Of a stretch of 64,000 nt of DNA, positions 38,381 to 43,077 are shown one piece after another; the stretch's first letter is position 1, and each line of letters starts with the position of its first letter. The stretch covers positions 62,001 through 126,000 of the forward strand of contig NZ_BJDG01000004.1 in the NCBI RefSeq assembly GCF_005404945.1. The letters run 5' to 3'. A model generated the notes under the pieces. The model had not been told where the DNA came from, searched no databases, and saw only the letters and a program-made list of their open reading frames with translations. This DNA is from Lactiplantibacillus pingfangensis. Its GTDB lineage: Bacteria > Bacillota > Bacilli > Lactobacillales > Lactobacillaceae. The position numbers and the translations under genes are program-made.

Positions 38381-39373
38381 CTAAAAAGTATGCTCAGTTT
38401 CCCCACCATTCAGAATAGTCAACACATCATCCAAACTAATATCGACCATATTCTTAACAGCAAGGTTCGTGTAGAAGCCGACATGTGGTGTCAAAATCAC
38501 ATTTGGCATTTGTAATAACTGCGCAATCAAACTATCCGTCAAGACTTCACCTTGATGATCTTGGTTGAATAATGCCGCTTCGCCTTCAACGGTATCCAAG
38601 GCCGCACCTGCAATTTCGCCGGCTTTCAAGGCGGCAACCAAGGCTTCGGTCACAATGACCGGCCCACGCGAGGCGTTAATAATGAAAGCATCCGACTTCA
38701 TTAATTTCAAAGCAGGGCCATCAATCAAGGCTTTAGAAGTCTCATTCAAGTCTACATGTAACGTCACCACGTCAGCTTGTTTCAACAAGTCTTCCTTAGA
38801 ATCAACATATGTCAAAACATCCGTCAACTCATCATGATGGACTAGGTCGTAAGCAATTACTTTAGCGCCTAAGCCGTGAAATAATCTCGCGACGGTCCCA
38901 CCAATTCGGCCAGCACCGATGACCCCGACCGTTAACGACCGGATTTCTCGTGCTTGTAAGCCGGCCCACTGGAAGTTTTGCTGACTAATCCGACTGTCAA
39001 ATAGTTCCAGATTCCGAATCAAGCGCATCGTTTGGGTCACGGCCATTTCAGCGACAGAATTGGGCGAGTAGGCTGGCACATTGGTAACCGCGAGTCCGGC
39101 AGCCTTGGCCGCTGGAATGTCAATTGTGTCGACACCGGCCGTCCGACTGGTAATCTGCTTCAAACCATAGTCTGCCAATTGTTGGTAAACAGCCGGATCA
39201 TCGCCAATCGCACTCCGTTGTTGAATAACCACCCCATCGTAACCCTTAGTTAACTCAGCGGTATCTGGATGGAATTCTAAAGCGTTAGTATCGACCTGTA
39301 CCTTATTTTTGGCGGCCCAATCTTTGATTGCTGCTTCTTCGTCATCGCGTACACTGTACATTAAAATTTTCAT
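38381..39373 (-). CDS. D-2-hydroxyacid dehydrogenase
   Basis: 330 residues, close to D-lactate dehydrogenase length. The Rossmann motif VGVIGAGRIGGTVA is near 148. Catalytic residues of the family are in place: Arg in NASRGPVI near 234, Glu in LDTVEGE near 264 and His in LTPHVGFYT near 295. It reduces a 2-oxoacid to a D-hydroxyacid with NADH. Being translationally coupled (TAATG) to an aromatic aminotransferase, it probably reduces phenylpyruvate, hydroxyphenylpyruvate or branched 2-oxoacids, yielding products such as phenyllactate, rather than serving as the main lactate enzyme. That assignment is inference from context. Confidence 0.88.
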   Translation of the reverse strand: MKILMYSVRDDEEAAIKDWAAKNKVQVDTNALEFHPDTAELTKGYDGVVIQQRSAIGDDPAVYQQLADYGLKQITSRTAGVDTIDIPAAKAAGLAVTNVPAYSPNSVAEMAVTQTMRLIRNLELFDSRISQQNFQWAGLQAREIRSLTVGVIGAGRIGGTVARLFHGLGAKVIAYDLVHHDELTDVLTYVDSKEDLLKQADVVTLHVDLNETSKALIDGPALKLMKSDAFIINASRGPVIVTEALVAALKAGEIAGAALDTVEGEAALFNQDHQGEVLTDSLIAQLLQMPNVILTPHVGFYTNLAVKNMVDISLDDVLTILNGGETEHTF

Positions 39374-40572
39374 TAGTTCGTCTCCGTTTCAGTTTGTTTG
39401 CTCGCGACGTAGTCACCAATCCGTTTAACGGCCGTTTCCAAGTTTGCCATGGAAGCGGCGTAACTAATCCGCACATAGCCTTCACCACCAGGGCCAAATG
39501 AGCTCCCTGGAATTAAAGCAACCCGGGCTTCATGAGCTAATTCACGGCAGAATGCCATACTATCTTGTGGCAGGCCAGCTGGAATTTTGCTGAATAGGTA
39601 GAATGCACCTTCAGGTTTCGCGGACTTGAATCCAAGCTTATTTAAGGCTTCGTATAAGTAGTCCCGCCGAGCCAAGTATTCTTTCTTCATGACTTGTGCA
39701 TCATCCATACCGTTGCTCAAGGCTTCCGCCGCCGCTGCTTGCGCGTTGGCCGTGGTCGTAGTGACAGTGAATTGGTGAATTTTGCCAAGCTGGGCAGTAA
39801 TTGCTTTAGGGGCACACATGACCCCAATCCGCCACCCGGTCATCGCGTGCGACTTTGAGACCCCATTCAGCAAAATCGTTTGTTCTGGCAAGTATTGGGC
39901 AATTGACACGTGGGCGTCACCATAAGTCAACTCGCTGTAGATCTCATCGGATAACACAAAGATTGGTTTGTCAGCTAAAACGTCGGCCAGCGCCTTTAAG
40001 TCATCACGCCGGTATGTCACACCGGTTGGATTCGATGGAAAGTTTAAAACGACCGCTTTGGCCTTGGGATGCGCCGCTAAAGTTTGCGTCAATTGTTCTG
40101 GTGACAAGACGAAGTCATTTTCCGACGTATCCATGAACACTGGTACCGCACCATTAAGCTTAGCAATCGCAATGTACAATGGGAAAATTGGCGTTGGAAT
40201 CAAGACTTCATCACCAGGATTCAAAATTGAACTCAACGCGGTGTAAATCCCACCAGTCGCACCGGCCGTAATAATAACTTCATTTTCAGGATCGTAATGC
40301 ACATCGTACTTTTTCGCTAAGAAGTTGGCTGCGGCTTGACGCAGTGCCATGGTCCCATTTGAAGGGGCATAGTGACTTTCGTTATTTTTGATACTCTGAA
40401 TGGCGGCGTCTTTGACATGTTCCGGCGTATTAAAGTCCGGTTCGCCTAAGGTTAGCCGGACAATTCCAGGAATATTAGCGATTTCGGCATTAAAAGCAAG
40501 AATATCGGATGGTTGAATGGCACTAAGCTGGTTGTTCATGTGTTGTACTAAAGTTTCAGAATCAATTGACAT
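39373..40572 (-). CDS. Class I/II aminotransferase, aromatic amino-acid type
   Basis: 399 residues, ATG after GGGAGGAAAC. PLP-binding landmarks: GATGGIYTAL near 103, NFPSNPTGVTY near 178, SDEIYSELTYG near 210 and the Schiff-base lysine in GVSKSHAMTGWRIG near 237. The subgroup resembles aromatic aminotransferases (AraT/PatA-like) of lactobacilli. It transfers the amino group of Phe, Tyr, Trp or similar acids to 2-oxoglutarate, and the coupled dehydrogenase then reduces the keto acid. The leader upstream encodes a peptide rich in Phe, Tyr and Trp, which independently points to aromatic substrates. Confidence 0.88.
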   Translation of the reverse strand: MSIDSETLVQHMNNQLSAIQPSDILAFNAEIANIPGIVRLTLGEPDFNTPEHVKDAAIQSIKNNESHYAPSNGTMALRQAAANFLAKKYDVHYDPENEVIITAGATGGIYTALSSILNPGDEVLIPTPIFPLYIAIAKLNGAVPVFMDTSENDFVLSPEQLTQTLAAHPKAKAVVLNFPSNPTGVTYRRDDLKALADVLADKPIFVLSDEIYSELTYGDAHVSIAQYLPEQTILLNGVSKSHAMTGWRIGVMCAPKAITAQLGKIHQFTVTTTTANAQAAAAEALSNGMDDAQVMKKEYLARRDYLYEALNKLGFKSAKPEGAFYLFSKIPAGLPQDSMAFCRELAHEARVALIPGSSFGPGGEGYVRISYAASMANLETAVKRIGDYVASKQTETETN

Positions 40573-40640: not shown

Positions 40641-40679
40641 AACAAAAAACACACCCGTCAAAAATTCAAAGGGTGTGTT
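40641..40679 (-). terminator. Leader terminator (attenuator) of the aminotransferase operon
   Basis: On the minus strand AACACACCC pairs with GGGTGTGTT around a 14-base loop and is followed by TTTTTTG TTTT. It lies about 70 bases before the aminotransferase ATG and downstream of the leader peptide, so it can stop transcription before the structural genes. Confidence 0.85.
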
Positions 40680-40735
40680 GCTTAAAAAATCTTATTTATA
40701 GCCGCCCTAGGAATTTTCGAACATCCATGGGCGCC

Positions 40736-40820
40736 ATTGAATCGCAAAAAGCCTTTGGCAAGCCGCATCGATGCAAACATCGGATTCGTGTTTGCACCTA
40801 TGCAGCGGGCACAAACACTA
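40736..40820 (-). promoter_or_regulatory. Alternative hairpins of the attenuator
   Basis: Hairpin 1 pairs GTGTTTG at the leader-peptide stop (complement 40812-40818) with CAAACAC (complement 40788-40794). The same second arm, read as TGCAAACA (complement 40789-40796), can instead pair perfectly with TGTTTGCA (complement 40772-40779). Further, ATTGAATCGC inside the peptide gene (complement 40860-40869) is an exact inverted match to GCGATTCAAT (complement 40736-40745). These exclusive pairings are what a ribosome-controlled switch needs. Confidence 0.6.
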
Positions 40821-40880
40821 GCGAAAATACCAAAAGTAAAAGCTAGTTGAAGTTTTTGGGCGATTCAATCGTAATGACAT
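40818..40880 (-). CDS. Aromatic leader peptide (20 aa) controlling the aminotransferase operon
   Basis: ATG (complement 40878-40880) with GAGGAG at eight bases, then 20 codons to TAG (complement 40818-40820). The peptide begins MSLRLNRPKT and ends STSFYFWYFR: six successive aromatic codons, Phe-Tyr-Phe-Trp-Tyr-Phe, just before the stop. It follows a consensus promoter and precedes mutually exclusive hairpins and a terminator. A ribosome stalled at these codons when aromatic tRNAs are uncharged, or moving freely when they are charged, would change which hairpin forms. Such a peptide is the classic mark of transcription attenuation. The direction of the response is not certain from sequence. 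Confidence 0.75.
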   Translation of the reverse strand: MSLRLNRPKTSTSFYFWYFR

Positions 40881-40910
40881 ATCATTAGCTCCTCATCAAT
40901 TATTAATCTA

Positions 40911-40939
40911 ACTATAACAATCCAAATAATCACTGTCAA
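40911..40939 (-). promoter_or_regulatory. Promoter of the leader peptide and aminotransferase operon
   Basis: TTGACA (complement 40934-40939), 17-base spacer, TATAGT (complement 40911-40916): a near-consensus sigma-A promoter ending about 25 bases before the leader-peptide ribosome site. Confidence 0.85.
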
Positions 40940-41705: not shown

Positions 41706-42974
41706 CTATTCCAAGCCATATTTCTTTTGCCAATGAATCATTAGTAATCCGGCACCCCAACCAACTAAGACGATACCAGCAAAGCACCACATGGTTGTTT
41801 TAATAACTGACGGAACAACCAAACTTGGTGTAACAAAAGCAAATAATGCACAACAAATTCGCGAAATACCATTAATGATTCCTTGAATCGACGACCTGAT
41901 TTCTATTGGAAATGATTCTTGCGTCCAGACCTTATACAAAGCCTCGCCACTAAAGTTACTCCCAAGGCCATACAAGAAAATAGCTCCCATGATAACCCAA
42001 AGGATATTACCGCCCATTGCCATCGCCGCGATGGCAATAAACATGACCATTGACCCAATACTAAAGGCCAAGTTACGATATTTACTTCCAGCAATCCAGG
42101 CATATAAAGCAACTAATGGTAAACCTAACAATTGCGTGATAATTCCATAACCGGTTGCTAAACTCTGTGAAGCGTTCGCCTTGACTAACATGAATGTTTG
42201 AAATTGCCCCCAAGTATTAGCGAGTAAATTCCAGCCAACATAGAACACCAAAATTGCTAAGAAGAATTTAAAAAGTTTGCCACTATTTTCTGAACCAAAT
42301 AACGCTTTAAAGACTGATTTAGTATTAATCGAACCTTTTTTGGCAGCTATTTTTGCATATCGCTGTTGACCTTCAACATGAAATTGTTGTAATTTTGATG
42401 AAAATGTTCGCCAAGCCCAAGTTCCGATGGCGATGGCTGATAAAATTACAAAGACCACTCTTGCTCCCAGTAAACCGCCCATCTTTGAAACAATAAATGA
42501 ACAGAAATAAGAGATAAAAATACCAACTTGCCAAAATACTTGAGTAAATGAGACTAATTCTGATGATGTTTTGTTGTCTGGCGCATCATGAGAAACAACC
42601 GTTAGCGAAATTGGCAGATCACAACCGGAAGTAATTCCTGCAATAACTGCACCAATGAGCAACGTGATAAAATTCGTTGAAAATACACACACCAACGTCC
42701 CGATGCCATAAAATAAGTTCGTCCAATTAAAAGTTTTTATCAGCCCGAAGGATTCTGCAAAACGACCACCGAATAATGACCCAAAAGCAATTGCAAATGT
42801 TAAAGCCCCTGAAATTATCCCAACTTGTAAATTGGTCAGACTCAGTCCCTGTTGCCACACTGGAATAGTTGCCGATAACCCGACAATAATTCCTGATCCT
42901 AGCATTGATCCCAATCCGGCCGCCATTGCAACTGGCCGGTACTGCTGAAAATTTTTAGATTTTGAAGCCATCAT
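41706..42974 (-). CDS. MFS transporter of the rhamnosidase cluster
   Basis: 422 residues from the ATG at 42974 with AGGA at ten bases. Twelve membrane helices. Conserved MFS loop regions appear as FGGRFAESFGLIKTF near 68 and KVWTQESFPIEIRSSIQGI near 360, a sugar-porter-like pattern. It probably imports a rhamnoside, rhamnose or the aglycone side product. Its codon use is more AT-rich than the flanking core genes, matching the rest of the island. Confidence 0.85.
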   Translation of the reverse strand: MMASKSKNFQQYRPVAMAAGLGSMLGSGIIVGLSATIPVWQQGLSLTNLQVGIISGALTFAIAFGSLFGGRFAESFGLIKTFNWTNLFYGIGTLVCVFSTNFITLLIGAVIAGITSGCDLPISLTVVSHDAPDNKTSSELVSFTQVFWQVGIFISYFCSFIVSKMGGLLGARVVFVILSAIAIGTWAWRTFSSKLQQFHVEGQQRYAKIAAKKGSINTKSVFKALFGSENSGKLFKFFLAILVFYVGWNLLANTWGQFQTFMLVKANASQSLATGYGIITQLLGLPLVALYAWIAGSKYRNLAFSIGSMVMFIAIAAMAMGGNILWVIMGAIFLYGLGSNFSGEALYKVWTQESFPIEIRSSIQGIINGISRICCALFAFVTPSLVVPSVIKTTMWCFAGIVLVGWGAGLLMIHWQKKYGLE

Positions 42975-43077
42975 AATCACTCATTCCTATTAATTTTTGA
43001 CGCATAATCCTATACTTCGCTCAATACGTCTTTAACTAAGCTATGTCGCGACGCAAATGATTGAATAAATCACATTC

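Follow-up and report, generated by a model that had tools for sequence, protein, structure and literature searches.

Whether a short open reading frame (ORF) ending in a run of aromatic codons controls transcription of the aminotransferase gene behind it is the question raised by the window, a stretch of 64,000 nucleotides from Lactiplantibacillus pingfangensis (contig NZ_BJDG01000004.1, positions 62,001 to 126,000) within which all coordinates below are given. The trp and phe operons of Escherichia coli are governed by leader-peptide attenuators and, in trp, the codons lie within a paired strand. T-box riboswitches read the charging of tRNA and control a terminator, and E. coli tnaC acts through arrest of the nascent chain by free tryptophan and Rho-dependent control. 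The first-pass annotation of the locus described leader-peptide attenuation as classical for enterobacteria and Firmicutes as relying mostly on T-boxes or TRAP, a division that must be softened since leader-peptide attenuators of his and ilv operons have already been reported in Firmicutes, according to the available parts of the articles cited here by PMC number. The mechanism of the his leader-peptide attenuator is summarised in PMC9413887, where His attenuators are predicted in three Firmicute groups and His T-boxes in Lactobacillales, and the available part of PMC2965389 presents a His leader peptide of Bacillus and states that none of that regular kind had previously been shown in Firmicutes. 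In Staphylococcus aureus, a Leu-responsive attenuator peptide is supported for ilv-leu (PMC5794164), and the same article cites attenuators predicted for the branched-chain amino acid genes of Lactococcus and Streptococcus. A literature search that left subscription papers mostly outside its scope found no published description of the leader considered here, in agreement with the first-pass annotation, which knew of none.

The leader-attenuator architecture first noted at this locus occupies 40939-40644 of the minus strand, on which all of its elements lie. A sigma-70-type promoter (40911..40939), whose hexamers TTGACA (40939-40934) and TATAGT (40916-40911) are 17 nucleotides apart and are both conserved in the alignment of all 21 leaders of the genus, is followed by the Shine-Dalgarno sequence GAGGAG (40889..40894) and by a leader ORF of 20 codons, MSLRLNRPKTSTSFYFWYFR-stop (40818..40880), with the C-terminal end FYFWYFR. 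Its Tyr-Phe-Trp sensor codons, TAC TTT TGG, make up strand A together with the first bases of the next codon (40828..40838). Strand 1, GTGTTTGTGCC (40808..40818), begins at the last base of the stop codon and can pair with strand 2, GGTGCAAACAC (40788..40798), which can also pair with strand 3, ATGTTTGCATCGATGCGGC (40762..40780); strand 3 can in turn pair with strand 4, GGCGCCCATGGATG (40722..40735), as CATCGATG/CATGGATG. Strand B (40752..40758), complementary to the sensor codons, reads CCAAAGG in the window vs CCAAAAG in most relatives. Strand 5, GAAAATTCCTAGGGCGGC (40701..40718), which can form a putative anti-antiterminator hairpin with strand 4, is itself the candidate antiterminator and complements the 5′ arm and loop of the terminator (T5, 40660..40679). 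The stem of this intrinsic terminator, AACACACCC / GGGTGTGTT (40679-40671 / 40656-40648), ends in a 3′ arm and T tract (40644..40656, with six T at 40649-40644) about 70 nucleotides ahead of the aminotransferase ATG (40572). The near-consensus promoter, the 20-codon ORF with its ribosome site and aromatic end, the overlapping alternative hairpins starting from the stop codon and the terminator 70 bases before the aminotransferase had all been proposed by the first-pass annotation, and each was found again by direct reading, with its coordinates checked.

Homologs of the aminotransferase occur in 60 of 60 related genomes and, at E 1e-148 or better, in 130 of 397 genomes of the family. The 118 stretches taken include four paralogs of the genus as controls and two loci (L197 and L198) below E 1e-148, and the locus set amounts to 135 with the 21 loci of the genus, and represents 20 genera within the family plus an outgroup genus. 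Genera are referred to by codes, among which g1 is Lactiplantibacillus (plajomi, songbeiensis, fabifermentans), g17 Leuconostoc (holzapfelii, inhae), g38 Secundilactobacillus (odoratitofui) and g51 Loigolactobacillus (backii). An aromatic ORF, defined by script as one with a ribosome site and at least 4 aromatic residues (F, Y, W) out of 7, was recorded in 111 of the 135 loci, and in 110 once L187, which lies about 600 nt upstream and differs from the other leaders, had been discarded as false; these 110 leaders spread over 16 genera, the window's own included. The 25 loci that have no leader, one of them (L112) truncated by the end of its contig, count against the attenuator reading: no leader was found in g44, g39, g15 or g10 (14 loci together), and leaders stand at 3 of 9 g3 loci and 4 of 6 g5 loci. 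Since the search was made by aromatic run, a leader that had lost its run would score as absent. When 24 of these 25 loci (all except L187) were scanned more loosely, three weak runs emerged, none core-like, and the same was true of 16 loci in 14 genomes that belong to the order but to other families, where the three weak runs hold three aromatic residues; the four control paralogs have no aromatic ORF. Among the matches listed in a family-wide search for the aromatic-run pattern, a recurrent g4 match lies in short open stretches that have no start codon and several others lie inside long frames; those listed in a scan of named genomes belong mostly to other phyla, and a plasmid collection gave no match. 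The structural comparisons used 109 leaders, 81 of them non-redundant, L179 being omitted for want of a clear terminator; a terminator between the ORF and the first gene was found in all 109, four of them placed by hand. Two g16 loci, L085 and L086 (genomes G151 and G403), combine a Lactiplantibacillus-type leader with an aminotransferase that is 83% identical and is the nearest homolog found outside the genus, which suggests that operon and switch were transferred together.

The leader peptide is well retained among close relatives. All 21 genomes of the genus have an ORF with the invariant end SFYFWYFR-stop ahead of the closest aminotransferase homolog; its N-terminal residues vary, with one-codon deletions in 4 of 21 and synonymous changes. 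Alignment across Lactiplantibacillus had been proposed as a check by the first-pass annotation, and its two expectations, constant aromatic codons beside a variable flank and no loss of the ORF or of these codons in close relatives, both held throughout the genus. The pattern (F/Y)3-W-(F/Y)-F has 24 matches in the 21 genomes, 21 of which are this leader; in the window genome it has a single match, again this leader, and the reversed control also has one. Over the 81 non-redundant leaders the core reads (F/Y)-Y-F-X-(F/Y)-F, with Y2 in 77, F3 in 80, F6 in 80, and F or Y at position 1 in 78 and at position 5 in 79, figures that amount to a fair test of conservation in the 21 genus genomes, the search having preselected an aromatic run elsewhere, with F, Y and W counted equally. 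Position X4 is Trp in 68 of 81 leaders and otherwise Arg, Tyr, Lys or Leu, and the core is separated from the stop codon by 1, 2 or 4 codons and once by 10. Both Phe and Tyr are present in 81 of 81 leaders and any Trp in 69; since 12 leaders have no Trp, it is not essential and the leader would read Phe and Tyr, so that the aromatic sensing first proposed stands for these two amino acids and falls for Trp. This peptide pattern fits a sensing of Phe/Tyr codon occupancy and would poorly suit a fixed arrest sequence.

It is very probable, judging from sequence comparison and from the folding models below, that the leader is a ribosome-mediated attenuator of transcription that responds to the charging of tRNA-Phe and tRNA-Tyr and is on in starvation. 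Under a shortage of Phe or Tyr, the leading ribosome would stall on the (F/Y)-Y-F-X-(F/Y) codons, where it would block pairing of A with B and leave strand 1, at the stop codon, free to form 1:2; the last strand could then capture the 5′ arm of the terminator, either directly or, in the genus, via a relay through 3:4, and transcription would read through into the aminotransferase. With enough of both amino acids, the ribosome would reach the stop codon and mask strand 1, so that 2:3 (then 4:5 in the genus) would form, the terminator would fold and transcription would end. Without translation, the codon stem A:B would form and termination would be favoured.

Outside the genus, these states could be followed by folding the transcript up to the terminator loop with the sequence upstream of the leading edge of the ribosome removed, for every codon position. 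Over 70 non-redundant leaders, the mean probability of the antiterminator is 0.71 with the ribosome stalled, 0.52 at the stop codon and 0.57 with no ribosome, and the mean stall-minus-stop difference is 0.185 vs -0.013 to 0.008 in six shuffle sets; it stays at 0.165 to 0.194 for ribosome footprints of 9-17 nt. The difference exceeds 0.05 in 40 of the 70 leaders, is reversed in 4 and is flat in the others, vs about 30% in each direction and a mean near zero in shuffles of the same leaders. Leaders such as L101, L106, L120 and L129 have a high antiterminator probability only with the A site on the aromatic codons, with a drop before the stop codon. By genus, in counts that include redundant leaders, a difference above 0.05 is seen in g38 (12/14), g17 (11/17), g14 (10/18), g5 (3/4), g12 (3/5), g37 (1/1) and g36 (1/1); the effect is weak or absent, which speaks against the attenuator, in g48 (4/14), g13 (1/4), g3 (1/3), g16 (0/2), g51 (0/2) and g40, g8 and g9 (0/1 each). 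On average, then, the antiterminator outside the genus is predicted to depend on the position of the ribosome and to be exclusive with the terminator.

The sensor codons appear to have a second role, as the stretch TAC TTT TGG has its complement, CCAAAAG, downstream. When the amino acid at X4 differs, the partner changes with it: Lys AAG/CTT (g17), Tyr TAT/ATA (g48), Arg CGC/GCG (g40), CGT/ACG (g9) and CGG/CCG (2 of 3 g3 leaders), to which one g38 locus adds a Leu TTG/CAA pairing seen by eye, the top match of the script lying elsewhere there. All 61 sense codons were tried at X4 against the entire downstream region. For the 16 leaders whose codon is not TGG, the leader's own codon outscores TGG in 16 of 16 and ranks first alone in 10, or first with ties counted in 12, the poorest case being L104, in which five codons score higher; for 74 of 93 TGG leaders, none of the other codons does better. 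Covariation of the stem was measured in two groups on alignments that were not fitted to it. In the first, of 17 sequences (16 of 17 g17 leaders and one from g36), the helix is formed in 94.7% of cells vs 38-51% when slid, with 11 double-changed cells, and in 14 g48 leaders it is formed in 93.6% vs 40-74%, with 8 such cells. The covariation scores exceed those of all 500 shuffles; no such clear excess is seen in how many pairs are double-changed or how many pair types occur, and changes inherited by several sequences enter the counts more than once. Trp is therefore dispensable at X4, where the residue changes together with the partner and Phe and Tyr are retained, and the sensor codons themselves are predicted to be part of the RNA switch. 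In the genus, the best partner found by script for these codons is not B but strand 5, a longer complement, in 19 of 21 leaders, so that A:5 pairing is a possible extra state there. If so read, the codon stem is a clean case of one stretch serving both as codons and as RNA switch, in which the amino acid shifts and the pairing stays.

Compensatory changes in the hairpins, which the first-pass annotation had looked to for support, are found in the terminator. In the window-type set of 23 leaders (the 21 of the genus and the two g16 loci with the 83% identical gene, perhaps a transferred copy), the terminator has double changes in 7 of 8 pairs and a covariation score of 0.515 vs 0.239 in shuffles. 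The pairings 1:2 and 3:4 never vary across the 23 rows and thus give no covariation evidence either way. All 23 leaders can form the 5:T5 duplex (-16.6 to -27.1 kcal/mol); when the alignment is held fixed, 86% of its cells are paired and none of the pairs is double-changed.

The genus leader is longer and has extra strands, which makes a relay its natural reading: with the ribosome stalled, 1:2, then 3:4, then 5:T5 would form, and with the ribosome at the stop codon, 2:3, then 4:5, then the terminator. The g16 copies follow this scheme in part, with 1:2 at 0.89, 3:4 at 0.80 before strand 5 and 5:T5 at 0.89 at the end when stalled, vs a 5:T5 probability of 0.00 at the stop codon, where the terminator arm takes other partners too (0.66 vs 0.62); once strand 5 is made, 4:5 is preferred over 3:4, stalled and at stop alike. 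At equilibrium, 2:3 is mostly dominant in the 21 genus leaders even with strand 1 free, and over 11 non-redundant ones the mean antiterminator probability is 0.59 stalled and 0.61 at stop, which weighs against the attenuator. With a 9 kcal barrier, a simple cotranscriptional heuristic is in partial support of the relay: at the stop codon, 2:3 and 4:5 form in 23/23 and 5:T5 in 0/23, and when stalled, 1:2 forms in 15/23, 3:4 in 11/23 and 5:T5 in 5/23; with a 6 kcal barrier, 5:T5 forms in 0/23 stalled and 3/23 at stop, and the relay is unsupported. In the window copy, 1:2 is near zero at equilibrium, the 5:T5 probability is 0.00 to 0.01, and 5:T5 never formed in the equilibrium or cotranscriptional models. 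The mechanism in the window copy, which does not switch in the models, thus rests on homology with leaders in which the switch computes.

The same numbers could mean that a genuine attenuator of the family is decaying in the window species, its antiterminator strand weakened and the operon mostly terminated. Strand 5 of the window reads CCTAGGGCGG vs CCAAGGGTGG, two weakening changes against the genus consensus, and its 5:T5 duplex reaches -18.4 kcal/mol vs about -22 in relatives (-22.0 in L002, -22.4 in L003 and -22.1 in L004). One of the changes, T to C, strengthens hairpin 4:5 and weakens 5:T5. Yet the promoter, ORF, sensor codons, strands 1-4 and terminator of the window are intact, and several genus members with a consensus strand 5 also have a low 5:T5 probability, so that the model is no proof of decay, which we regard as unlikely.

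A different use of the same peptide would be a TnaC-type arrest, in which nascent FYFWYFR stalls its own ribosome at aromatic excess and turns on a catabolic operon. The aminotransferase and the hydroxyacid dehydrogenase could indeed be catabolic, and F6 is kept in 80 of 81 leaders while its codon alternates between TTT and TTC (40:40). Such an arrest is nonetheless distinctly improbable: five different residues (W, R, Y, K, L) occur at X4, F and Y replace each other at positions 1 and 5, the distance from F6 to the stop codon is 1, 2, 4 or 10 residues where a fixed one was looked for, and, outside the genus, a ribosome placed on the codons gives a stronger predicted antiterminator than one that has reached the stop codon.

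Still less probable, and indeed very hard to sustain, is a translation-independent structured RNA, either riboswitch or protein-binding leader, with an incidental ORF. Strands 1 to 4 are largely invariant over 23 leaders, as in ligand-binding RNAs, and Rfam searches would be blind to an undescribed class; against this, the ribosome site, start codon and frame are retained despite a variable N-terminal part, and the X4 amino acid changes with pairing retained where the neighbouring Phe and Tyr codons stay. In the window, neither a T-box nor any other Rfam family scored above thresholds, with only weak matches to unrelated families at the leader; 20 leader loci of other genera gave no Rfam match, and 20 of the 24 loci that have no aromatic ORF gave none able to replace the leader. 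At E 0.001 or better, the window genome has 34 T-box matches, of which 9 exceed the gathering score, and the leader peptide thus coexists with wide T-box use. A degenerate T-box leader for Phe or Tyr, favoured by this wide use and by strand 5 (AAGGGTGGC in relatives), which we take to resemble part of the T-box sequence, can be practically dismissed, as the leader has no T-box match at gathering or relaxed threshold, the 20 leader loci of other genera have none above the gathering score, and T varies to C within the presumed tRNA-binding bases.

The ribosome-mediated attenuator would, by analogy, work in the manner of the enterobacterial ones, the likeness being one of mechanism. With E. coli trp and phe it shares a leader ORF carrying codons of the sensed amino acid, which as in trp belong to a strand that can pair, a predicted exclusive antiterminator and terminator, and a predicted starvation-ON response, but its Phe/Tyr run is mixed, its target is an aminotransferase and not a biosynthetic operon, and the hairpin chain of the genus is longer. 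T-boxes are likewise linked to tRNA charging and a terminator, but without a translated ORF, and tnaC of E. coli is also an aromatic-linked leader peptide, whereas an intrinsic terminator and variable residues are found here. Closer by phylum, ilv-leu of S. aureus is a case of Firmicute leader-peptide attenuation relieved by starvation, but with Leu/Ile codons and a biosynthetic operon (available part of PMC5794164), and the His attenuators of the Bacillus cereus group, Peptostreptococcaceae and Erysipelotrichales are, like this leader, predicted and Firmicute, but have His codons (PMC2965389 and PMC9413887, in their available parts). Transcription that outruns ribosomes, as in Bacillus subtilis, where RNA polymerase runs ahead of them according to the available part of a review (PMC7858274), would hinder leader-peptide attenuation. 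A conserved coupling-dependent mechanism in Firmicutes would make the transcription-translation question testable in lactic acid bacteria, and an aromatic-specific leader-peptide attenuator of wide distribution would be added to a family in which amino acid genes are known to be under T-box control.

What the switch would serve depends on the genes behind it. The PLP-dependent aminotransferase (39373..40572, minus strand; NCBIfam PRK07309, 576.4 bits for a cut-off of 576; Pfam Aminotran_1_2) is followed by a D-2-hydroxyacid dehydrogenase gene (38381..39373, minus strand), whose ATG overlaps the aminotransferase stop codon by one base. The aminotransferase/D-hydroxyacid dehydrogenase operon named by the first-pass annotation is thus present in the window. 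Of the 109 leader loci, 92 have the dehydrogenase 3′ of the aminotransferase, among them all 21 of the genus, 13 have none, and four stretches were too short to tell; the dehydrogenase is therefore not an obligatory partner. Because the search for leaders was confined to the region ahead of the aminotransferase, their association with this gene is no test in itself. Prephenate dehydratase (PF00800) was not detected in 21 of 21 genus genomes, the control search being positive in 14 of 14 well-known genomes; among 77 hand-picked genomes of the family, 11 have a PF00800 match, 10 above cut-off. Of these 77 genomes, 56 carry the C-terminal domain of prephenate dehydrogenase (PF20463), as do 17 of the 21 of the genus, that of the window included. 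With PF00800 undetected and PF20463 common, a starvation-induced aminotransferase could complete Tyr synthesis and convert external phenylpyruvate to Phe, these being putative substrates. The wiring to a phenyllactate-type pathway first proposed is kept in part, as the predicted ON-in-starvation logic is better suited to Tyr synthesis or to salvage than to the making of phenyllactate; the leader would nevertheless predict when lactobacilli express an enzyme pair possibly tied to phenyllactate and aroma compounds. It is possible, if doubtful, that the genus leader is a relay attenuator that switches on, in Phe/Tyr starvation, a salvage of Phe and Tyr in PF00800-negative cells, in which the hydroxyacid dehydrogenase would turn aromatic hydroxyacids into oxo acids and the aminotransferase these into Phe and Tyr. 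Should both relay and salvage be true, ribosomes would keep pace with RNA polymerase in these Firmicutes.

In 10 of 12 inspected loci that have no dehydrogenase (L094, L105, L108, L125, L136, L170, L175, L182, L192 and L193), a membrane protein of about 350 residues, alike by eye, is encoded 8 to 222 nt downstream; two of these proteins were profile-tested and match PTS_EIIC_2 (PF13303), and the protein may carry aromatic compounds. At the leaderless loci L087 and L098, a similar membrane protein, translated by eye, ends directly before the aminotransferase. In the window, a divergent gene for a HAD-type hydrolase lies upstream of the leader and, past it, upstream of the operon, an MFS transporter gene (41706-42980, minus strand) has a weak match, 49 bits for a cut-off of 418, to the aromatic acid/H+ symport family.
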